A stretch of 61,684 bases of DNA from Phycisphaerales bacterium. Lineage in GTDB: Bacteria > Planctomycetota > Phycisphaerae > SM23-33. Made by a program: the position numbers and the translations under genes. The notes under the pieces were generated by a model. That model was not told where the DNA came from. It saw only the letters and a program-made list of their open reading frames with translations, and did no database searches. Shown here one piece after another: positions 6,873-61,665 of this stretch. Position 1 is the first letter of the stretch. Each line of letters opens with the position of its first letter. The stretch covers positions 1-61,684 of the forward strand of contig JABGPZ010000108.1 of the NCBI GenBank assembly GCA_018644725.1. The letters run 5' to 3'.

Positions 6873-7559
6873 CTATTTTTTGCGCCGCTTCAGAATCGCC
6901 ATTCCGCCGAGTGCCAGCAGGCTTATCGTCGCGGGTTCGGGAACGGGATCGGTACTGACCTGGAAGGCGACTTTATCCAAGCGCCCCTGGGCTGCACTGT
7001 CGCCTCCCGTAAAGATCAGGGTTTCCGCAAGTGTGTTAGAAAATCGAACAGTGGTATTCGCCGTATAAGCGACATCGTTCAGTACCAGTGTGCCGCCCAG
7101 ATTGTTGACATAAGCTTCTGTGAAGCCAACAAAGGATCCGATGTTGGCTGTAGCTGTTTCGCCATTGAGGCCATACGTTACGGTGCCCGCTGTGAGTGTC
7201 AAGACCTCGCCCATTTCTACTCGGTCGGACCGGTCACTATCATCGATCGAATCAATGCCCCACAAAGACCCTGCAGTCACTGATGCCGCCGTTGCGCCAT
7301 CTCTGTTTGACGTTGCGGAAACCAGAATTGTCCAGCGCATAGAATCGTTCCCAGATCCACCGCCGTCAAGGTCAACATTTGTGAGATCAAAGGTATACGT
7401 CGACACGCCGGGATTGCCCGGAAGACTGCTTCCCCCGCCCGAGGTGGCGATCGTGCCCACAACGGATAGGGAGGGAAGGGGGGCCTGGTCGGCCACAAAG
7501 TCTGTGACTGTGATCGTGGCAGCGGGAAGTGTCGAAATCGCTGACAAAAGAATCACCAT
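6873..7559 (-). CDS. PEP-CTERM sorting-domain secreted protein
   Basis: 228 residues by the ATG at 7559. The C-terminus has VPEPATISLLALGGMAIL then KRRKK: PEP motif, membrane helix, basic tail. Such proteins are exported and processed by exosortase. The body is rich in Thr, Ser, Gly and beta-strand-like segments, without a recognised enzyme domain. The signal peptide is odd: from this ATG it is only about 14 residues (MVILLSAISTLPAA) with no basic n-region and no ribosome site. The frame stays open upstream with two lysines, so a non-ATG start, such as the CTG at 7580, is possible. No exosortase gene is in the window. Confidence 0.85.
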   Translation of the reverse strand: MVILLSAISTLPAATITVTDFVADQAPLPSLSVVGTIATSGGGSSLPGNPGVSTYTFDLTNVDLDGGGSGNDSMRWTILVSATSNRDGATAASVTAGSLWGIDSIDDSDRSDRVEMGEVLTLTAGTVTYGLNGETATANIGSFVGFTEAYVNNLGGTLVLNDVAYTANTTVRFSNTLAETLIFTGGDSAAQGRLDKVAFQVSTDPVPEPATISLLALGGMAILKRRKK

Positions 7560-49391: not shown

Positions 49392-51026
49392 CTATTTTGA
49401 GTCCGTGCTGAGGGGGATGATGAGGGTGAAGGTGGAGCCTTCGCCGCCGGTGGAATGCAGGCCGAGTCGTCCGCCGAGCAGCCCCGCGAGTTCGCGACTG
49501 ATCGCCAGGCCCAGGCCCGTGCCGGTGGCCTCTTTGGTGAGCACGCCTTCGGCTTGATAGAACTTTTCAAAGATGTGCGTCTGGTCGGCCTCGCTGATGC
49601 CCGGGCCGGTGTCGATGACGCTGTAGAGAATCGTGTCGTTGCGCTCGCCGTTGGGGTGCAGGCCAAACTGCGCGCTGAGGATAACCGTCCCGCCGGGGGG
49701 CGTAAATTTCACGGCATTGCTCATCAGATTGAACAGAATCTGCTGGAGCTTCCCGCCGTCGGACTGAATGATCGGCAGGTCTGGATCGATTTCGGTTTTC
49801 AGCTCGATGTCTTTTTTTTGCGCGAGCGGTGCCATGAGGGTGACAATATTCTGGGCGGTGTCGAGGGGGCTGACGGCATCGAAGCGGACGGTGGCCTTGC
49901 CGGCTTCCATTTTCGCGAGGTCGAGCATGTCGTTGATCATGTTCAGCAGGTTTTTCGACGCGGTGGCGATGTTGCCGCCATAGCGCGCGACCTTGCTGTC
50001 TTCCCGCCCGGCGAGCAGGTCCGCAAAGCCGATGATGCTGTTGAGCGGCGTGCGCAGTTCGTGGCTGACGTTGGCGAGGAACTCGGTCTTCATCTGGTTC
50101 GCTTCGAAGAGGGCGGTGTTCTTGCGGGACAAATCTTCCATCCGCAGCTCCAGAGCTTCACTGGCGGCCTGGAGGCGGACGTGTTGGTCCTGAATCGCGA
50201 TGAGCATGTCATTGAAGCTGTTGCCGAGGTGCTGGAATTCGTCGCCCGTCGAGAGGCTGCACCGCGCGTTGAGGTCCCCCTCGGCGACTTTGTTGGTGAG
50301 GCGATTGAGTTTGCGCACCGGCCGAAGGATGATCCGGTTGATCAGGATCGAGAAGACGACGGTCGCCAGCAGCCCTGCGATCAGGCCGCCGACGAGAATT
50401 GCCCCGCGCGTCCAGCGGAGGTTTGTCTGGGCGGTGGTGTTCTGCGGCAGTGTGACATCCACGACCCCCACGAGTTTGCCACGATAAAATCGCAGATCCT
50501 TGTTGGGATGTTTTTCGTGGTGGCACCCGAAGCAGTCGGCCGTGCAGCGAATCGCGCGGAACCCGCGATAGATGCGCTGGCCTTTCTCGTTTTTGGTCCG
50601 CACGCAGCGAATGTCAATGTTGCTGTGGTCGAGGAAAAACGCCCATGCCTTGCGGGTGCGCCGGTCGAGGGTGTTGTCGTCGGGTTTGAGGCCGGTAAAC
50701 GAGCGGACGATGGGGCCTTCGCGATGGCCGACCGTGGGAAGGGGGTCAAGCGTTTCGGGCTTGTCCGCCTCGGGTTTCTCCGTGTAGAGATTGGCGACGT
50801 TGGATTTGGCGTAGGCCTCTTTGAGGTTCTTGGTGTGGGCCGATTGCCATTCGAGCAGCCGCAGGCGGGTGAGTTCGCGCGCCGGACCTTCGAGGCTTTG
50901 TTCGAAAAGGACATTGGTGAAATACCACGGCATCGCCAGCGCGGCCGCAATCACACCCAGCAGCGCCAAACCAAACAGCAGGCGGATTTTCAGTGCGAGC
51001 GAGATGCGCGTAAGACTTTTGGGCAT
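49392..51026 (-). CDS. Sensor histidine kinase with c-type heme (Tll0287-like) domain
   Basis: 544 residues. Order: membrane helix about 13-33; extracytoplasmic Tll0287-like/DUF3365 domain with the heme motif CFGCH at 165-169; membrane helix about 208-232; HAMP domain; coiled linker; HisKA with SHELRTPLNS (H322); HATPase with NLMSNAVKFTPPGG and DTGPGISEADQTHIFEKFYQ. It is expected to sense redox state or a gas through heme c and phosphorylate a response regulator. No response regulator is encoded next to it. Its mRNA appears to be leaderless. It is divergent from the MerR-type gene. Confidence 0.92.
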   Translation of the reverse strand: MPKSLTRISLALKIRLLFGLALLGVIAAALAMPWYFTNVLFEQSLEGPARELTRLRLLEWQSAHTKNLKEAYAKSNVANLYTEKPEADKPETLDPLPTVGHREGPIVRSFTGLKPDDNTLDRRTRKAWAFFLDHSNIDIRCVRTKNEKGQRIYRGFRAIRCTADCFGCHHEKHPNKDLRFYRGKLVGVVDVTLPQNTTAQTNLRWTRGAILVGGLIAGLLATVVFSILINRIILRPVRKLNRLTNKVAEGDLNARCSLSTGDEFQHLGNSFNDMLIAIQDQHVRLQAASEALELRMEDLSRKNTALFEANQMKTEFLANVSHELRTPLNSIIGFADLLAGREDSKVARYGGNIATASKNLLNMINDMLDLAKMEAGKATVRFDAVSPLDTAQNIVTLMAPLAQKKDIELKTEIDPDLPIIQSDGGKLQQILFNLMSNAVKFTPPGGTVILSAQFGLHPNGERNDTILYSVIDTGPGISEADQTHIFEKFYQAEGVLTKEATGTGLGLAISRELAGLLGGRLGLHSTGGEGSTFTLIIPLSTDSK

Positions 51027-52848: not shown

Positions 52849-52924
52849 TCATAGCTTAATAACATAGTATCCGCAAACACTCTGCGATTCGCTTATGCCC
52901 GCATACCCCAAGGTGAGACAGATT

Positions 52925-55900
52925 ATGATGAAGATGACACGGACATTGACAATTGGCTTGATGGTTTTGGCCGCACTTGGCTGCAACGACGTAAAGGCCG
53001 AAACGGCTACGCCCGCGCCCGGTGCGACGTTCGCGGAAATGACCTCTGATGGCGCGTGGTGCTGGTTTAGCGATCCGCGCGCGATCTACGACAACGGCAA
53101 GACGATCGCCGGCTGGGTGAATCAAAGCGGCGATGTGATGGTCGGCGCGTATGACATCAAAACCGGGGAAATCGAGACAGTTGCGCTCGCCAAGAAGTTC
53201 CAACGCGACGACCACGACAATCCGTCGTTCCTTGTGTTGCCCGATGGCCGTTACATGGCACTCTATTCCCGCCACGGAGACCCGTCTGGCCTACGGTATA
53301 AAATCTCCACCAAGCCAGGCTCGATTTCCAAATGGTCGAAGGAAATGTACATCAAAGGCGCTGCCGGCGGCAAGAAAATCCCCGTGGGTCACTGCTATAC
53401 GAATCCCGCGATGTTGTCGGCCGAGAAAAATCGCATCTACATCTATGGCCGCGTGGTCAACTGGCAGCCATCAGTTGCTTGGAGCGATGATGGCGGAAAG
53501 ACGTTCACGAAGTTTCATCGTGTGATCTCCAGCACTGATACCCGCGGCAATCGGCCCTATGTGAAGTATGCCAACAACGGCAAGGACACGATTTACATAG
53601 CCTTCACCGATGGCCACCCGCGCAACGAGCCGACCAACAGCATCTACTTTATGGCCTATAAAAACGGCGCGTTCTACAAGGCCGGCGGCACGAAGATTTC
53701 CGACATGAAGACCGTCATGGCCGGCACGCCCATCAAGCAGCGTGACTGCGACGTCGTTCATGATGCGACGGGCGATAAGGCTCGCTGCTGGATTTGGGAC
53801 GTTGCGTTTGACGCCGCAGGCAATCCTGCGCTGGTTTACTCCCGCTGCCCAGCCGAGACGAATCACGAATATTGGTATGCGAAGTTCGACGGCAAAACGT
53901 GGATCACTACGAAGCTGACCGATGCGGGCAAGTGGTTCCCCCAGACCACAAAAGGGGCCAAAGAGCGCGAGCCGCACTACTCTGCGGGCCTGAATCTCGA
54001 CCACAATGATCCGTCGAATGTTTATCTCGCCAAACCCGTCAACGGCGTGTTTGAAATCTTCCACTACACGACCGCTGATGGCGGGGAAACCTTTACGAAT
54101 AAAGCAATTACGAAGGGGTCGAAAAAGAACAACGTCCGCCCATTCCCCGTGCGCTATTACAATGGTACGGGCCCGAAGGTGCTGTGGATGGAGGGCTATT
54201 ATCGCCACTATACCGACTACAAAACCTCGATTCGCATGACGCCCGCCAAGACGCCCGAGCCGCGCAAAGTCAGTTGCGAACCCGCAGCCATGCTTGGCGT
54301 GATTCGCGAAGTGGGGGACTATGAAATCGCCCACCCCTCGCCTCAGCGCACGACCGACTGGACGATGGGCGCACACTGGACCGGCATGATGGCGTGCTAC
54401 CGCGTCACGCAGGATCCGAAATATCGCCGCTACATGGAAACGAAGTTTGATGCTGTCGGCTGGAAACCCGGCCGCCGTCCTTATCATGCGGATGATCACA
54501 CCGTCTGCCAGACCTATCTTGATCTTTACGCGATTTCCGGCCAAAAGAAGATGCTTGCGCCGACGAAGAAACACTTCGACAAAATTATGAGCACGCCGCC
54601 CAAACGCGAGAAGATCAAGGGTCAGCACGTTCTGGAGCACGTCGGCAAGGGCACGACCGAAGTCTGGAGCTGGTGCGACGCGTTGTACATGGCACCGCCC
54701 GCGTTTGCGCGACTCTACACGGCCACCGGCGATACCAAGTATCTCGACTGGATGGACACCATGTGGTGGCGCACAAGCGACTACCTCTACGATGCCAAAG
54801 AAGGGCTCTACTACCGCGACAGCCGCTACTTTGGCAAGAAAACCACCCCCAACGGCGCGAAGGTGTTTTGGAGTCGTGGCAACGGCTGGGTGATCGGCGG
54901 GCTCGTTCGCGTTCTCCAGCACATGCCGATGGACTATCCCTCGCGGCCGAAGTATATCAAGCAGCTTCGCGAGATGGCTGCGACGCTGAAAAAACGCCAG
55001 GGCAAAGACGGCCTGTGGAACCCCTCGCTGCTCGACTTTGACGACTGCCCCGGCGGCGAAACTTCCGGCAGCGGGTTCTTTACTTACGCGATCTGCTGGG
55101 GCATCAACAACGGCATCCTCGACGCGAAGGAGTATTGGCCGACCGTCGAGGCAGGCTGGAAAGGCCTGATGCGCTGCGTCGATCAAAACGGCAAACTTTG
55201 CTACGTCCAGCCGATTGGCGCTGCGCCCAATGCGTTCAGCAAGCACACCACGCAGGTCTACGGCACGGGTGCGTTCATGCTCGCCGGCGCGGAAGTGCTG
55301 AAATATCAGCTCACCCACGGCCAGACGGAAACCCGCGTGAGCCTTACCAATCCGTCCAACTTTGCGCGCAAGCAGCATCTGACCCATTTGCCCAAAAACG
55401 ATTGGCCAAAGAACATGCTGATTCTTGACGCTCGCAGTGGTGAGGTTGTGCCGCATCAAATCACTCTTCATGGTGTTTTCGTGCAGTTGAACTTCCTGCC
55501 AAAGGAAACCCGCATTGTGCGCGTGGTTGAACTCGAAAAGAAATTACCAATCCAATTTGAAGTCCGCACGATGGCGCGGTTTGTGCCCGAGCGCATGGAC
55601 GACTTCGCGTGGGAAACCGACCGGATCGGTTTCCGTACGTTCGGCCCGACCGTCGCGCTTCCCAAGCCCAAGGGCGAAGGGCTGAAGACCTCGGGTGTGG
55701 ATGTCTGGACCAAGTCGACGCGCGAGATGATCGTCAACAAGTTCTACAAGAATGGTAGCTATCATAAAGATCACGGCGAAGGGATGGACTATTTCAAAGT
55801 CGGTTCCTCGGCCGGCTGCGGCGCGATTGGTTCGTTCAAGGATGGCAAATTCACTACCGCGAAAAACTTCCTCACCTCGAAGATTCTCTACACTGGTCCG

Positions 55901-56323
55901 TTGGCCAGCGAGTTTGAGTTGACCTACCCCGGCGAGGCCAAGCCACGCATGATTGCCATCGGGGCAGGGGGCTGGCTCTACTACACTTCCGCGCCCTCAG
56001 TGGAGAACCCAGCGGCGGGCATTGTCCTGCATACCAAGAAGGCCAAGGTCACTATCGGCGAGAATTATGTCACAGTCTGGGAAGAGCCCCACGGCGAGGA
56101 TGGTATTACCGGCATGGCGATTGTCGCGCCGGATGGCTTTTCCGCCAAGCCGCGCGAGGTCAATGGCCAGCTGGTTGTTCCGCTAAAGGAGCCGTACTAT
56201 TTTGCTGGCGCGTGCTGGAACAAGAGCGGCGACTTCACGACTGCAGCCGCGTGGAACGCCCACGTCAAGCAAGTACCTGAAAAGGCAAATGTACCGATAA
56301 TACATACAATCCTAAATCGATAG
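52925..56323 (+). CDS. BNR-GH105-DUF4861 fusion, pectin/rhamnogalacturonan enzyme
   Basis: About 1132 residues in three parts. An N-terminal signal (MMKMTRTLTIGLMVLAALGC) fits a lipoprotein, or a plain signal peptide ending VKA. Residues about 30-450 are a BNR_4-type beta-propeller (SDDGGKTF, TADGGETF). Residues about 450-820 are a GH105-type unsaturated rhamnogalacturonyl hydrolase barrel: DDHTVCQTYLDLY, EVWSWCDALYMAPPAFARLY and FWSRGNGWVIGGLVRVL, with Asp residues at the positions used in YteR/YesR. Residues about 840-1132 match DUF4861 (RMDDFAWETDRIGFRTFGP, SGVDVWTKSTRE, YHKDHGEGMDYFKVG). It would cut unsaturated uronate from pectin fragments outside the cytoplasm. The ATG at 52925 follows AAGGTGA; a start at 52895 is less likely. 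Confidence 0.88.
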   Translation: MMKMTRTLTIGLMVLAALGCNDVKAETATPAPGATFAEMTSDGAWCWFSDPRAIYDNGKTIAGWVNQSGDVMVGAYDIKTGEIETVALAKKFQRDDHDNPSFLVLPDGRYMALYSRHGDPSGLRYKISTKPGSISKWSKEMYIKGAAGGKKIPVGHCYTNPAMLSAEKNRIYIYGRVVNWQPSVAWSDDGGKTFTKFHRVISSTDTRGNRPYVKYANNGKDTIYIAFTDGHPRNEPTNSIYFMAYKNGAFYKAGGTKISDMKTVMAGTPIKQRDCDVVHDATGDKARCWIWDVAFDAAGNPALVYSRCPAETNHEYWYAKFDGKTWITTKLTDAGKWFPQTTKGAKEREPHYSAGLNLDHNDPSNVYLAKPVNGVFEIFHYTTADGGETFTNKAITKGSKKNNVRPFPVRYYNGTGPKVLWMEGYYRHYTDYKTSIRMTPAKTPEPRKVSCEPAAMLGVIREVGDYEIAHPSPQRTTDWTMGAHWTGMMACYRVTQDPKYRRYMETKFDAVGWKPGRRPYHADDHTVCQTYLDLYAISGQKKMLAPTKKHFDKIMSTPPKREKIKGQHVLEHVGKGTTEVWSWCDALYMAPPAFARLYTATGDTKYLDWMDTMWWRTSDYLYDAKEGLYYRDSRYFGKKTTPNGAKVFWSRGNGWVIGGLVRVLQHMPMDYPSRPKYIKQLREMAATLKKRQGKDGLWNPSLLDFDDCPGGETSGSGFFTYAICWGINNGILDAKEYWPTVEAGWKGLMRCVDQNGKLCYVQPIGAAPNAFSKHTTQVYGTGAFMLAGAEVLKYQLTHGQTETRVSLTNPSNFARKQHLTHLPKNDWPKNMLILDARSGEVVPHQITLHGVFVQLNFLPKETRIVRVVELEKKLPIQFEVRTMARFVPERMDDFAWETDRIGFRTFGPTVALPKPKGEGLKTSGVDVWTKSTREMIVNKFYKNGSYHKDHGEGMDYFKVGSSAGCGAIGSFKDGKFTTAKNFLTSKILYTGPLASEFELTYPGEAKPRMIAIGAGGWLYYTSAPSVENPAAGIVLHTKKAKVTIGENYVTVWEEPHGEDGITGMAIVAPDGFSAKPREVNGQLVVPLKEPYYFAGACWNKSGDFTTAAAWNAHVKQVPEKANVPIIHTILNR

Positions 56324-56337
56324 AATGGAGTTTTGAC

Positions 56338-57168
56338 ATGGAAGTACGATACAGCGCAGACCCGGTTCGATTTTGCCGGATGACGACGGCCGAAGTGCGT
56401 GAGAATTTTCTCGTCGAGTCGCTTTTCGCGGCCGATGAAATCGTCATGGTCTACAGTGACGTCGACCGCGCGATTTGCGGCTCGGCCGTGCCCGCTGCTG
56501 GCCCGCTGACCCTCGCGACGGCGGATGAACTCCGCGCGGACTACTTCTGCCAGCGTCGCGAACTCGGTGTGCTGAACATCGGCGGCGCGGGGCAGGTCAC
56601 CGTCGATGGCACCGCGTACGACATGGCGAACAAAGATTCGCTCTACGTCGGCCGGGGCAGCAAGACAATCACCTTCACCTCCGCCGAGGCCGCCTCGCCC
56701 GCGCAGTTCTATCTGCTGAGCTATCCGGCCCACGCGGACTATCCCACGACCCACGCCCGCAAGGCCGACGCGAATCCGATTGAAATGGGTAGCGACGCCG
56801 AGTGCAACAAGCGCACGATTTTCCAGTGCATCCATCCCGGCGGCATGCAGTCCTGCCAGCTCGTAATGGGCTTTACGGAACTCGCCGAGGGCAATGTCTG
56901 GAACACCATGCCCGCGCACACCCACGAACGGCGGATGGAAGTCTACATGTATTTCGACGTACCCGAAGGCAACCGCGTCTTCCACTACATGGGCAAGCCC
57001 GAAGAGACGCGCCACATCGCCGTCGCCGACCGCCAGGCCGTCATCAGCCCGTCGTGGTCGATCCACTCCGGCTGCGGCACGAAGGCCTACACTTTCTGCT
57101 GGGGCATGGGCGGCGAGAATCAGCAGTTCGACGACATGGACCACCTCAAAATTGAAGATATCAAATAG
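56338..57168 (+). CDS. kduI: 5-dehydro-4-deoxy-D-glucuronate isomerase KduI
   Basis: 276 residues, full length for KduI. Cupin-fold isomerase with the zinc ligands in MPAHTHERRMEVYMYF (H-x-H and E) and a late His in SPSWSIHSGCGTKAY. It converts 4-deoxy-L-threo-5-hexosulose uronate to 3-deoxy-D-glycero-2,5-hexodiulosonate, the substrate of KduD. It begins 14 bases after the fusion enzyme with GGAG in front of the ATG. Confidence 0.96.
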   Translation: MEVRYSADPVRFCRMTTAEVRENFLVESLFAADEIVMVYSDVDRAICGSAVPAAGPLTLATADELRADYFCQRRELGVLNIGGAGQVTVDGTAYDMANKDSLYVGRGSKTITFTSAEAASPAQFYLLSYPAHADYPTTHARKADANPIEMGSDAECNKRTIFQCIHPGGMQSCQLVMGFTELAEGNVWNTMPAHTHERRMEVYMYFDVPEGNRVFHYMGKPEETRHIAVADRQAVISPSWSIHSGCGTKAYTFCWGMGGENQQFDDMDHLKIEDIK

Positions 57169-57201
57169 GCTGTAGGTAGGAAAAAAAATGAAAGAAATTA
57201 T

Positions 57202-57221
57202 GGGCGAAAGATTTTTCGCCC
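57202..57221. repeat. Perfect palindrome in kduI-kduD gap
   Basis: GGGCGAAA at 57202-57209 and TTTCGCCC at 57214-57221 with a 4-base loop. Outer arms TGTAGG at 57171-57176 and CCTACA at 57221-57226 also match inversely. The hairpin may trim or attenuate the transcript between kduI and kduD, or be a scattered repeat. Confidence 0.7.
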
Positions 57222-57243
57222 CTACAAGAAAGACAAACTAACT

Positions 57244-58014
57244 ATGACCATCATGAATCAATTTGACCTCACTGGCAAGACGGCCCTCGTGACCGGTTGC
57301 GACAGCGGGATCGGCATGGGCATGGCCACCGCACTCGCCGAGGCCGGCGCCGACATCGTCGCGATGAGCTACAGCATCGACCCCGCCGGCAGTGAAATCG
57401 AGACGGTCGTCACGGGCCTTGGCCGAACATTCAAGGCCTACCAGTGCGACTTTTCCGACCGCAAGGCGCTTTACGCGTCCATCGCCGCGATCCAGGCCGA
57501 GTGCGCCCCGATTGACATTCTCGTCAACAATGCCGGCACGATCCTCCGCGAACCCATCGCCGAGCATCGCGACGAATATTGGGACAAAGTTCTCGAAGTC
57601 AACCTCACCGCCCAGTTCATTCTGACGCGCGAGATCGGAAAAACAATGGTCGCGCGCGGCGGCGGCAAGGTGATCTTCACCGCGTCGTTGCTCTCGTTCC
57701 AGGGCGGGATCACCGTGCCGGGCTATGCCGCGAGCAAGTCTGGCGTGTCGCGCCTGGCGATGAGCTTTGCCAACGAGTGGGCCAAAAGCGGCGTGAACGT
57801 CAATGCCATCGCACCGGGCTATATCGCGACGGCCAACACCACCGCTCTGCGCGCAGACGAAACACGCAACCGACAAATTCTTGAACGCATCCCGGCGAAT
57901 CGATGGGGCACTCCCGACGATTTCAAAGGTCCGGTACTGTTTCTTGCGTCTGATGCGTCGAGTTATATGAATGGCCACACGATGGTCGTCGACGGCGGCT
58001 GGATGGGCCGCTAA
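57244..58014 (+). CDS. kduD: 2-dehydro-3-deoxy-D-gluconate 5-dehydrogenase KduD
   Basis: 256 residues. Short-chain dehydrogenase: TGCDSGIGMGMA cofactor loop, LVNNAGT, catalytic Ser in FTASLLSFQGG and YxxxK as GYAASKSGV. The C-terminal FLASDASSYMNGHTMVVDGGW, noted here as FLASDASSYMNGH plus VVDGGW, is typical. It makes 2-keto-3-deoxygluconate from the KduI product using NADH. It is 11 bases before kdgA. An ATG three codons later is an alternative start. Confidence 0.95.
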   Translation: MTIMNQFDLTGKTALVTGCDSGIGMGMATALAEAGADIVAMSYSIDPAGSEIETVVTGLGRTFKAYQCDFSDRKALYASIAAIQAECAPIDILVNNAGTILREPIAEHRDEYWDKVLEVNLTAQFILTREIGKTMVARGGGKVIFTASLLSFQGGITVPGYAASKSGVSRLAMSFANEWAKSGVNVNAIAPGYIATANTTALRADETRNRQILERIPANRWGTPDDFKGPVLFLASDASSYMNGHTMVVDGGWMGR

Positions 58015-58025
58015 AGGAGAACGAA

Positions 58026-58700
58026 ATGTCACGATTCCAACGAAGCGACGTACTGGCGGCGATGAAACGGATCGGGGTGATTCCCGTCTTCTATCATCCC
58101 GATGTCGAGGTCGTCAAATCCGTCGTCTCCGCGTGTGCCGCGGGCGGCGCGACGGCGATAGAGTTCACCAACCGCGGCGACCGCGCATTGGACGTGTTCC
58201 TCGATGTGGCCGACTGGGCCGCCGACGAGCTGCCCGAAGTTATGCTCGGCGTGGGCAGCGTGATGGACGCACCGACGGCGGCGATGTATATTGCGGCCGG
58301 GGCGGATTTCATCGTCTCGCCGATTCTCGACGCACCCACGGCAGAGCTGTGTAACGGGCGGAAAATCGCTTTCTCGCCTGGCTGTGCAACACCCACCGAA
58401 GTTCACGCCGCCCACAAACTCGGCGTGGATATCGTCAAACTGTTCCCCGGCGGAGCGGCAGGGGGCCCGTCCATGGTGGCTGCGATCCGCGGGCCGATGC
58501 CCTGGGCAGAAATCATGCCCACCGGCGGCGTTGCACCCACCGAAGAATCCCTCCGTGAATGGTTCGGCGCGGGGATCGTCTGTGCGGGCATGGGCAGCAA
58601 ACTCCTCTCCAAAGACCTTCTCGCCAGCGAAGACTGGGACGCGATCACCGCCAACGTCCGCGCGACAGTAGACCTGATCGAAAAGATCCGAAGCGAATAA
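58026..58700 (+). CDS. kdgA: KDPG/KHG aldolase
   Basis: 224 residues. Class I aldolase with the Schiff-base lysine in VDIVKLFPGGAAGG, the base glutamate in TAIEFTNRGDRA, and FSPGCATPTEV and MPTGGVAP segments. It splits 2-keto-3-deoxy-6-phosphogluconate to pyruvate and glyceraldehyde-3-phosphate, ending the uronate route. The KDG kinase that must come before it is not in the window. Ribosome site AAGGAG, operon with kduD. Confidence 0.95.
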   Translation: MSRFQRSDVLAAMKRIGVIPVFYHPDVEVVKSVVSACAAGGATAIEFTNRGDRALDVFLDVADWAADELPEVMLGVGSVMDAPTAAMYIAAGADFIVSPILDAPTAELCNGRKIAFSPGCATPTEVHAAHKLGVDIVKLFPGGAAGGPSMVAAIRGPMPWAEIMPTGGVAPTEESLREWFGAGIVCAGMGSKLLSKDLLASEDWDAITANVRATVDLIEKIRSE

Positions 58701-58847: not shown

Positions 58848-59540
58848 TTATGCGCGTTTGCGGCGCTTTAACATTGCGATCCCACCAAGTGCGAGCAGGG
58901 CCATTGTCGTCGGTTCGGGAACGGGTTCCCATTCGTAGTCGACGCGCAGAACCCCTGCGGTGATGTAGTCAGAGACGGTGGCTTGGACGTCGCCGCCGCC
59001 AGTGAGAACCCATGAACCGACGGAGGTCAAATCATAGCTGATCTCGCCAGTACCCTCAAATGCATCGAGGCTACTCCAGGACGTCTTGCTGTAGGTGTAG
59101 GTCTCACTTTCGAGTGATCCGAAGTTCCAATAGTCATCCCCCGTGCCGTTGTACACTTGGCCGCCGCCTTCGTTGGCAGCAAAATCGTGCGTAGGAGTCG
59201 GGGTGGAGATCGACAGGAACTCAAAGTCATTAACATTCCCGGTACCCTGGAAGGTAACGAATGCACCTGACATGTCTGCACTGCCTTCGACGGGCGAGCT
59301 CGCTCCGTTTTCAAACGCAATGCTGGCCGACTGCTGGGCGGTGAAGCTCAGCGTAACTCCCGTTAATACACGAGTGTCGTTTTGTGTGTCAAATTGAGAA
59401 AGAGTCATCGTGTAGGGCGTCGTTTCAATCGGATTCCCCTCGGAGTACTCCGTTTGATAGCCCATAGTTTTCGCCGAGGCGACCCCCGTCCCCAATGCCA
59501 GAAGAATACAACATCCAGCCCAATAAGTCTTCGTTTTCAT
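58848..59540 (-). CDS. PEP-CTERM secreted protein, choice-of-anchor E-like
   Basis: About 230 residues from the ATG at 59540 (GGAG 7 bases upstream). A clear signal peptide (MKTKTYWAGCCILLALGTG, then VASA) is followed by a beta-rich domain (YTMTLSQFDTQNDTRVLTGV, then LSFTAQQSASIAFENG) like the choice-of-anchor E type. The sorting tail is VPEPTTMALLALGGIAML then KRRKRA. It is exported and handled by exosortase. The tail is nearly the same as in the first PEP-CTERM protein, as expected for one shared exosortase. Confidence 0.9.
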   Translation of the reverse strand: MKTKTYWAGCCILLALGTGVASAKTMGYQTEYSEGNPIETTPYTMTLSQFDTQNDTRVLTGVTLSFTAQQSASIAFENGASSPVEGSADMSGAFVTFQGTGNVNDFEFLSISTPTPTHDFAANEGGGQVYNGTGDDYWNFGSLESETYTYSKTSWSSLDAFEGTGEISYDLTSVGSWVLTGGGDVQATVSDYITAGVLRVDYEWEPVPEPTTMALLALGGIAMLKRRKRA

Positions 59541-59561
59541 TTGATGCTCCAAATTTCCAGA

Positions 59562-59576
59562 ACAAGTACTACTTGT
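59562..59576. promoter_or_regulatory. Operator-like palindrome upstream of second PEP-CTERM gene
   Basis: ACAAGT-act-ACTTGT, a perfect 6-bp inverted repeat 22 bases upstream of the ATG, in or near the leader. It could bind a regulator or fold in the mRNA. Confidence 0.35.
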
Positions 59577-59757
59577 CCTTTTGATCCCCTCGGAAACCAC
59601 CAGGCTTCACAAACGGAAGGTGTAGGCCACCGGCAGTTTCTCCCTCGAGAAAATTAAACCAGACAGCCAATATTGATTGACAACAGAACATCCGTTGCCT
59701 GCTTTGTTATGTCGCCACGGAACAGCGCGTGGTATTCGTTTCCCGGGCCCTATCGGC

Positions 59758-60168
59758 TCAGGCAGAGTGTTGTAGTTGCTGGGCAGATTCGAGAAGGCCG
59801 GTCCATTGCCAGGGGTCGACATCGCCTTGGAAATACATTGCACCGTGTTGTCGGGCATCGAGTTCGGCGGCCGGTTCGTCACTGACGACGGCCAAGACAC
59901 AGCGCGGATGGTTCCGCTTTGCCCAGCGTAAGGTTCGCGACAATTCAACCAGGTCCTCGGGCGAATGAATCACCAGAAGGTTCATGGCTCGTGCGGGGAT
60001 ATTCGCCAGCATATCGCACGGGGTGTCGTATGCGAGCAGAGATACACCCTGCTGCGTTGACAGACGATCACACAGTGCGGACAGGTCTTGGTGGGTTCCC
60101 CCCACGACCATTGCGGTCATCGAATTGTGGTCTCTCTCACGCCAGGCCGATTCATAAGAATTCGGCAT
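59758..60168 (-). CDS. Pseudo-receiver-like protein under sigma-54 control
   Basis: 136 residues. The order of strands fits a response-regulator receiver fold: MTAMVVGGTHQD, VSLLAYDTP, NLLVIHSPED, CVLAVVSDEP and GAMYFQGDVDP. The phospho-acceptor aspartate at the end of strand 3 is replaced (VIHSPED), the acidic pair at the end of strand 1 is missing, and the strand-5 lysine is absent (FQGD). It would therefore not be phosphorylated in the usual way. Fold assignment is by pattern only. AAGGAG precedes the ATG. The upstream region has a consensus sigma-54 site. Confidence 0.65.
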   Translation of the reverse strand: MPNSYESAWRERDHNSMTAMVVGGTHQDLSALCDRLSTQQGVSLLAYDTPCDMLANIPARAMNLLVIHSPEDLVELSRTLRWAKRNHPRCVLAVVSDEPAAELDARQHGAMYFQGDVDPWQWTGLLESAQQLQHSA

Positions 60169-60248
60169 GGTGTTCTCCTTGGTACGGCTTTCTCACGGCC
60201 GTAACTGATGTACTCTCGGTGCGAGGCTCTTCGCACTCATCGATATTG

Positions 60249-60264
60249 TGCAATTGTCGTGCCA
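60249..60264 (-). promoter_or_regulatory. Sigma-54 (RpoN) promoter
   Basis: Minus strand: TGGCACG-ACAA-TTGCA, a complete match to the -24/-12 consensus TGGCACG-N4-TTGCW. Transcription would begin near 60238, about 70 bases before the ATG at 60168. No rpoN or sigma-54 activator gene is in the window. Confidence 0.8.
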
Positions 60265-60426
60265 TAACGGAAAAAACTTCACGCTGATCGTGTAACCTCT
60301 TGTTTCATAAGTAGATATAAAAGTACAAATAATTAAGATGGGTTTCTGGAATCTGCTGGAATTGTTGCATTGTGTCGTATTCTGCATCGGCGGGTGGGGC
60401 CGGGGGGAATATTCCATAAATCGCCC

Positions 60427-60455: not shown

Positions 60456-60498
60456 CAAATGGTGGTGGATGAAACGAACTTTCTGAATGGAGATTGAT

Positions 60499-61665
60499 AT
60501 GAACCGGACACGAATTTTTCTTGGCGTATTGGCGATGGTGATCTCTTTGGTGGTCTTGGCCGATCCGCTTTGTGCCGCCCCGAAGAAAAAGCCAGCGAAG
60601 AAACCGGCGGGAAAGAAACCGCCCGCGCGCAAGCCCAAACCCAAATCCGGCCCCACCCCCAAACGGACGAAAAGTACAGATTTTATCGTCAGGGATGGGA
60701 TGCTGCTTGCTAAAAAATATCAGATTGAAACGATTGAGAATCCTGCGATAACGTTTCATTTTCCATCTTGTTCGACAATCTATTGTCGTGTTGCCAAGAC
60801 TCCCTATTTTGCTGTTCATACCACAGACTGTGGCGGTGGCGGGGAGGTTGAACTACAGGACTACAGATATCTGACTCTATCCTTGGATCATAGAGATGAA
60901 GGAGCATCCTGGAAGAAAATTGGAGAGGCCATTGGGAAACTTCCTGGTCTGGTCTCATTTTCCATTGGTCCCAAGGTTACGAGTACAGAATTGGGTGAAT
61001 TGCTTCCGTATCTCAAGACGCTTTCTGTGTTGTCGATCAATTGCGAAAAATTGACCGATGATGATTTGCATGGAATTGGAGCACTGACACAGCTCAAGTC
61101 GCTTAGCTTGTACAACTGCAGTAAAATCACGGATTTGGGATTAATTCATTTACGCAACTTGACGAAATTGAAGAAGTTTAAGTTTTCCCCTGAGAATATT
61201 ACCGATATGGGGCTGGCGTGCTTGAGCGAAATGGTGGACCTCGAAATGCTGAATCTCTCTGGTGCTACACAAATAACCGCTTCGGGATTGGCGAATATCA
61301 AGGGGTTAACCTCCCTCGTCGAGCTTGATTTGACCAAAACTGGCGTGGGTGATGATGGGTTGGAGCATTTGACGAATATGAAAAAGCTTAAAATTCTTCA
61401 TCTGGTGGATACGAAAGTAACCGATGCTGGGATGAAGGCCTTGTCACAACTCCCTCTGTTGGCAAAATTGCGTCTGAATAATACGAAAGTGCGCGGCGAG
61501 GGGTTTGTGCATTTTAAGGGGACCAAGACGCTTTATTACCTGGGGCTGTATGGCACGCCGTTCTGCGATGAAGGGATGGAACATCTCAAGGCAGTACGAT
61601 CCCTCGCCTTCTTGTACCTCGGAAAAACGTTAGGGCATCTTGAAAAATACCGTTTTTCGGGGTGA
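60499..61665 (+). CDS. Secreted leucine-rich-repeat protein (small)
   Basis: About 388 residues. A signal peptide (about 1-27, ending LCA) is followed by a Lys/Pro-rich linker (APKKKPAKKPAGKKPPARK), a short Cys-bearing N-terminal domain, and about eight LRRs of the ITDxGLxHL type. The N-terminal domain shares a layout with the LRR protein at 26258 (SW/TW...EAL, then LxPYL). The last repeat is cut: after LAFLYLGKT the sequence goes to LGHLEKYRFSG and stops, so the 3' end may be truncated by a frameshift. The ATG at 60499 has GGAG 6 bases upstream. Low GC compared with the kdu genes. Confidence 0.82.
   Translation: MNRTRIFLGVLAMVISLVVLADPLCAAPKKKPAKKPAGKKPPARKPKPKSGPTPKRTKSTDFIVRDGMLLAKKYQIETIENPAITFHFPSCSTIYCRVAKTPYFAVHTTDCGGGGEVELQDYRYLTLSLDHRDEGASWKKIGEAIGKLPGLVSFSIGPKVTSTELGELLPYLKTLSVLSINCEKLTDDDLHGIGALTQLKSLSLYNCSKITDLGLIHLRNLTKLKKFKFSPENITDMGLACLSEMVDLEMLNLSGATQITASGLANIKGLTSLVELDLTKTGVGDDGLEHLTNMKKLKILHLVDTKVTDAGMKALSQLPLLAKLRLNNTKVRGEGFVHFKGTKTLYYLGLYGTPFCDEGMEHLKAVRSLAFLYLGKTLGHLEKYRFSG

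Follow-up and report, generated by a model that had tools for sequence, protein, structure and literature searches.

A sigma-54 promoter, a pseudo-receiver protein and a candidate sensor-less activator in one order of Phycisphaerae

The window, by which we mean the whole analysed stretch of 61,684 nucleotides from a Phycisphaerales bacterium, carries on its minus strand a gene for a protein of 136 aa (59758..60168), with a GGAG ribosome site 6 nt ahead of the ATG. The initial annotation had placed a full match to the sigma-54 -24/-12 consensus upstream of it and had regarded this site as the only one in the window. Both observations are correct: TGGCACGACAATTGC at 60250..60264 (minus strand) has 0 mismatches and is the sole exact match in the window. 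The ATG lies 82 nt past this element, and transcription is predicted to start at 60238, in agreement with the start proposed by the annotation, which would give a 70-nt leader. Sequence and fold reveal a hairpin in the leader (GUGCGA-AGAGCC-UCGCAC, 60219..60236, minus strand), the fold z-score of which is only -1.6. It holds GAAGAGCCT, a variant of the GAGGAGCCT motif present in the leaders of relatives and in the structured RNA described below. The next gene on the same strand encodes a PEP-CTERM surface protein (58848..59600, minus strand, likely ATG at 59540; Pfam PEP-CTERM, 3.3e-6). On the other side, a leucine-rich-repeat gene (60487-61665, plus strand) diverges from the unit, and the intergenic region with the enhancer is common to both.

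An exact 11-base match is expected about 0.03 times by chance on both strands of 61.7 kb, and with one mismatch allowed about two -24/-12 sites are expected per window. Taken alone, the single exact match is suggestive only. Genome-wide, the pattern TGGCAC-N5-TTGC occurs 12 times, versus 5 times for the reversed control pattern. Orthologous sites scoring at least 12.0 of 14.5 were detected upstream of 27 of the 29 readable homologues of the gene, compared with 2.5% of background 150-nt windows; the genomes are akin and the counts hence non-independent, and they span about two dozen genera with proteins near 30% identity. As throughout this work, these counts derive from draft metagenome assemblies and take no account of relatedness. 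GGC and TG are invariant in all 29 sites and the last base is C or T in 28; three congeneric genomes have the site further upstream. Since the site is conserved across homologues, the computed promoter represents more than chance, and its control of the gene is well supported. That the match is a functionless coincidence has a practically negligible probability: sites with one mismatch are indeed expected in any such window, but conservation of the position among such divergent proteins, together with an enhancer, leads us to reject this explanation.

The annotation had made its proposal depend on the existence of rpoN, and this gene is present in the window genome (PF04552, 3.7e-55). The bEBP activators that it called for exist as well, four of them at full strength (PF00158 matches at or below 2e-65), supporting activator dependence of the promoter.

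De novo motif search in the 260 nt preceding the promoters yielded TGNNGCA-N3-TGCNNCA, a 17-bp inverted repeat. Sites with at most one mismatch number 41, versus 0.7 expected from mononucleotide shuffles. Promoters with the motif have one to four copies of it, often spaced by about 21-23 bp and mostly located 110-180 nt upstream, at a distance similar for nearly all promoters. The probable enhancer of the window (60363..60389, minus strand) consists of two overlapping inverted repeats, CGATGCA-GAA-TACGACA and TACGACA-CAA-TGCAACA, which are degenerate, with 2 mismatches each, and lie 115-125 nt upstream of the -24 element. The first of them aligns with TGATGCAAGATGCGACACA of the nearest relative (L081), situated at -122, so that the two distances are almost equal. 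Whole-genome scans of 12 genomes for sigma-54 sites and for enhancers revealed few additional targets.

Using the window protein as a single-sequence query, homologues, exactly one each, were found in 30 of 60 related genomes; those relatives that bear a name are metagenome-assembled genomes of Phycisphaerae and Planctomycetales (e.g. SM23_33). The homologues occur in 27 of 35 genomes of the same family (own genome included), in all 3 genomes of the sister family and in none of 22 from the rest of the class; that is, in 30 of 38 genomes of the same order. Profile search in 198 genomes of the class retrieved no strong members outside the order, and weaker matches were often long ORFs of bEBP size. 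The protein thus belongs to a family restricted to the order.

The annotation had described a receiver-like fold devoid of the phospho-Asp, the acidic pair and the Lys, and this description holds. AlphaFold2 run on 28 homologues predicted a (beta-alpha)5 fold (pLDDT 87.7, pTM 0.81). Best Foldseek matches are receivers, the atypical HP1043 and TadZ among them, and best PDB sequence matches of the family profile are receivers of the NtrC family (E 7e-4). In the window protein, Gly/Thr/His follow beta1, His68 stands at the end of beta3 instead of the phospho-Asp, and Gln114/Gly115 end beta5; the acidic pair and the Lys are missing too, the Lys position being Arg in most family members. Because phosphotransfer residues are absent, we call the protein a pseudo-receiver. 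None of 28 members exceeds the cut-off of Pfam Response_reg (best E 0.024), and the window protein has no Pfam match over cut-off; NikR_C (0.013, below cut-off) was rejected as noise given the fold. P58, E102, R106, G109 and A110 are invariant in the family, W82 and W122 are nearly so, and a basic-aromatic motif, W-x-R-x-R-W-P-R-C, is kept. Known pseudo-receivers likewise have a receiver fold without phosphotransfer residues (PMC12632262). The present family is new and differs from them in having a conserved genetic partner.

This partner, a bEBP of about 340 aa, has AAA+ and HTH_8 domains and lacks any regulatory domain; at 18 loci, its gene lies directly upstream of the pseudo-receiver gene on the same strand. 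The GAFTGA/GSFTGA motif is intact in all 30 bEBP sequences (both paralogues, see below). Orthologues are present in 28 of the 30 genomes with a pseudo-receiver, 27 of them at E<=1e-100 and one truncated by a contig end; outside the order, no match is better than 3e-84. The orthologue of the window genome (G000:C18, E 3e-103, the next bEBP being at 1e-67) is encoded on another contig. In two genomes with the pseudo-receiver, G004 and G011, no bEBP orthologue was detected; the G011 gene is at a contig end.

Such an arrangement resembles the phage shock system of E. coli, where PspF, a bEBP with AAA+ and Fis-type HTH domains, has no sensory domain and PspA is a separate protein made from an adjoining sigma-54 promoter. 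The partner described here resembles PspF-type bEBPs in consisting of AAA+ and HTH alone, in lacking an N-terminal domain and in having the GAFTGA loop. PspA inhibits PspF in trans (PMC3791423). The two systems differ in that the partner here has a receiver fold and PspA is a coiled-coil, and in the structured RNA that occurs in relatives here. They differ also in the bEBP itself. PspF binds PspA by its W56 loop, and at what we take to be the corresponding position, the Trp is absent from the sensor-less bEBP wherever readable (25 of 30 sequences). As the loop is not conserved, any contact between the bEBP and the pseudo-receiver must differ from that of PspF and PspA.

Since a regulatory domain is missing from the bEBP and the neighbouring gene encodes a stand-alone receiver fold devoid of phosphorylation chemistry, we infer that the pseudo-receiver acts in trans as the detached regulatory domain of this bEBP, whose orthologue would switch the window gene as a sigma-54 unit; we regard this as somewhat better than an even bet. 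The bEBP would bind the 17-bp inverted repeats, situated 110-180 bp upstream, and would remodel sigma-54 polymerase at the -24/-12 site, upon which the pseudo-receiver would be made, in nearly all relatives from a transcript that would also carry the structured RNA. The pseudo-receiver would then probably serve as feedback inhibitor of the bEBP hexamer in the manner of PspA acting on PspF. Promoter, enhancer, bEBP, fold, linkage and RNA covariation are results of computation, whereas binding of this enhancer by this bEBP, interaction of the two proteins and the sign of the effect are our inference. Receivers of the NtrC family as best PDB matches and recurrence of the order bEBP, sigma-54 site, pseudo-receiver in a paralogous set (see below) speak for the proposal. 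Location of the window bEBP on another contig, degeneracy of the window enhancer and the two genomes without detected orthologue are points against this proposal.

While the sigma-54 promoter, activator dependence and degenerate receiver of the initial annotation all stand, its phosphorelay decoy is not the explanation that we favour. A decoy or adaptor of this kind would dock on a histidine kinase or on another receiver, and there are observations in its favour: at about ten loci, genes for a HAMP-HisKA histidine kinase and a receiver-GGDEF protein adjoin the bEBP gene in divergent orientation, and the best-conserved residues (E102, R106, G109, A110) map to alpha4 and beta5, an interaction face in receivers. 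The constant partner is, however, the bEBP and not the kinase, and phosphotransfer residues are absent family-wide, which makes us consider the decoy quite unlikely. The detached regulatory domain fits better, because the adjoining conserved partner is a bEBP without a receiver or sensory domain of its own. Given the kinase and the receiver-GGDEF protein beyond the bEBP in these relatives, some link of the pseudo-receiver to a phosphorelay is possible. A HAMP-HisKA histidine kinase resembling those beside the bEBP of relatives is also encoded in the window (49392-51026, minus strand).

Downstream of the pseudo-receiver gene, relatives possess a structured RNA of about 300 nt, usually 3' of the gene; by its 3' hallmark, 38 copies were counted at 29 loci. 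It is built of two modules that are related to each other. In each, a hairpin with loop GAGAUGAGCGCC is accompanied by a second one whose loop is rich in pyrimidines and reads CUCCUCC in the 3' module. Folding of one member displays a long closing helix (GGUAGAGGU/ACCUCUACC) and, at the 3' end, a hairpin followed by a U tract, resembling an intrinsic terminator. Covariation, evaluated in a MAFFT alignment of 21 sequences, unfitted to the structure, against 500 shuffles, is strong. In 90.1% of cells the bases pair, and 19 of 30 pairs exhibit two-sided changes. None of the 500 shuffles reached any of these measures, and slid versions pair near 45%; in a wider, model-fitted alignment, two-sided changes affect 25 of 29 pairs. 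The RNA is undescribed and matches no Rfam 15 family: copies of L081, L083, L095, L126 and L086 gave no match over the gathering score, and that of L117 had a best E of 0.39, far below the cut-off. Search of viral contigs with one exact 3'-end pattern retrieved no match.

Model R1 detects the RNA in 31 of the 60 genomes, 29 of which also encode the pseudo-receiver; one genome has the pseudo-receiver only and two have the RNA only. In G012, G017, G030 and G023, a copy of the RNA stands alone, with an enhancer and a sigma-54 promoter to itself and without a convincing ORF (L081:6827; L083 4918-5079 and L095 9443-9614, both minus strand; L126:901). Existence of such copies speaks for the RNA being functional as a unit by itself. 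In one genus (L094, L099, L125), three copies follow the pseudo-receiver gene in tandem, with the U-tract terminator mainly at the last one. No enhancer with sigma-54 site was found near copies remote from the pseudo-receiver (L187-L197; G014, G010, G030, G017 and others), some of which sit near contig ends. As a separate observation, TGGCACGCGAATTGC occurs about 20 times in genome G005, in many cases some 100 nt away from a contig end, like a repeated element.

In the window genome, the exact hairpin motif is absent and model R1 gives a best E of 0.86, so the genome either lacks the RNA or has a strongly diverged one, unless the assembly misses it. It is mainly by the want of a convincing copy that the window differs from its relatives. 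This bears on the possibility that the pseudo-receiver is an RNA-binding protein with the structured RNA of its own transcript as partner, either forming a ribonucleoprotein or being titrated by the RNA off the bEBP. Joint presence in 29 genomes, the usual 3' position of the RNA and the conserved basic-aromatic motif would all be in line with it. On the other hand, the window genome has the protein with no RNA found, stand-alone RNAs could act by themselves, and the pseudo-receiver contains no known RNA-binding domain; we judge this function unlikely. CsrA was also considered as a target sponged by the RNA via the GAGGAGCC motif, but CsrA is distributed nearly class-wide regardless of the RNA, which lends the idea no support. 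The RNA may act by binding the pseudo-receiver, or by pairing of the CUCCUCC loops with ribosome sites.

Regulatory RNAs transcribed from sigma-54 promoters are best known from vibrios, where LuxO, a bEBP with a phosphorylatable receiver, drives the Qrr RNAs of quorum sensing, sometimes present in several copies. The module described here is similar in that a bEBP and sigma-54 would drive an RNA, at times in multiple copies. It differs in that LuxO keeps its phosphorylatable receiver, and the present RNA is larger, unrelated and usually placed in the 3' part of an mRNA. Such regulation would be extended to Planctomycetes by an RNA that has an enhancer and a sigma-54 promoter to itself. In a bold and rather improbable reading, the elements would unite into a switch of three parts in one order of Phycisphaerae. 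A sensor-less bEBP would work with the pseudo-receiver as its detached domain and with a new class of enhancer-driven sigma-54 RNA, which would be made along with the pseudo-receiver and would bind it or pair with Shine-Dalgarno sequences through the CUCCUCC loops. The window lineage would then be a derived one that lost the RNA and has the PEP-CTERM gene instead. The module appears to wire a known bacterial switch in a new way, and no title or abstract listed in searches of open-access literature on sigma-54 or structured RNA in Planctomycetes reports it. According to a 2025 perspective (PMC12632262), the mechanisms by which pseudo-receivers are activated and inactivated are a mystery. For one family, the predicted partner, promoter and enhancer now make control directly testable.

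The PEP-CTERM gene of the window occupies the place where relatives have the structured RNA. No terminator-like site was found or predicted on the minus strand between it and the pseudo-receiver gene, and their co-transcription is possible. A further PEP-CTERM protein was recognized in the window by its motif (6873-7559, minus strand). Genes at 52895-58700 encode a GH88/BNR protein, a KduI-like protein, a short-chain dehydrogenase and a KDPG aldolase, and look like a cluster for use of polyuronate (pectin).

PEP-CTERM genes of Proteobacteria are preceded by an enhancer and a sigma-54 site and have PrsR as activator (PMC1569441). The PrsR-PrsK system is thus similar to ours in combining an enhancer motif with a sigma-54 site at PEP-CTERM-linked genes, but PrsR has its own receiver, whereas here the activator and the degenerate receiver-like protein are separate. 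One could therefore imagine that the unit serves surface or exopolysaccharide functions, the pseudo-receiver being an output adaptor and not a regulator of transcription. Besides this precedent and the gene following in the window, two PEP-CTERM genes come after a similar unit of G025, in which a pseudo-receiver gene likewise has a promoter and an enhancer, and many surround the paralogous modules described below. Yet most loci of the first paralogue in relatives have no adjoining PEP-CTERM gene and the bEBP link is stronger; a role of this kind is very unlikely.

Paralogous modules were detected in five genomes, at loci rich in PEP-CTERM genes. In these modules, a sigma-54 site and a member of a second pseudo-receiver family come after another sensor-less bEBP. 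This second family (L230-L234, L100/L199) keeps an Asp near the end of beta3, and its sigma-54 units lie among PEP-CTERM genes; the second bEBP is found within L230-L234. In L230 (G014:C98), three tandem repeats of about 120 nt (minus strand, 3557, 3237 and 2927), each with a perfect sigma-54 site and, after it, a terminator hairpin, lie between the sensor-less bEBP and the pseudo-receiver, and their sequence suggests that they are probably tandem sigma-54 small RNA genes.
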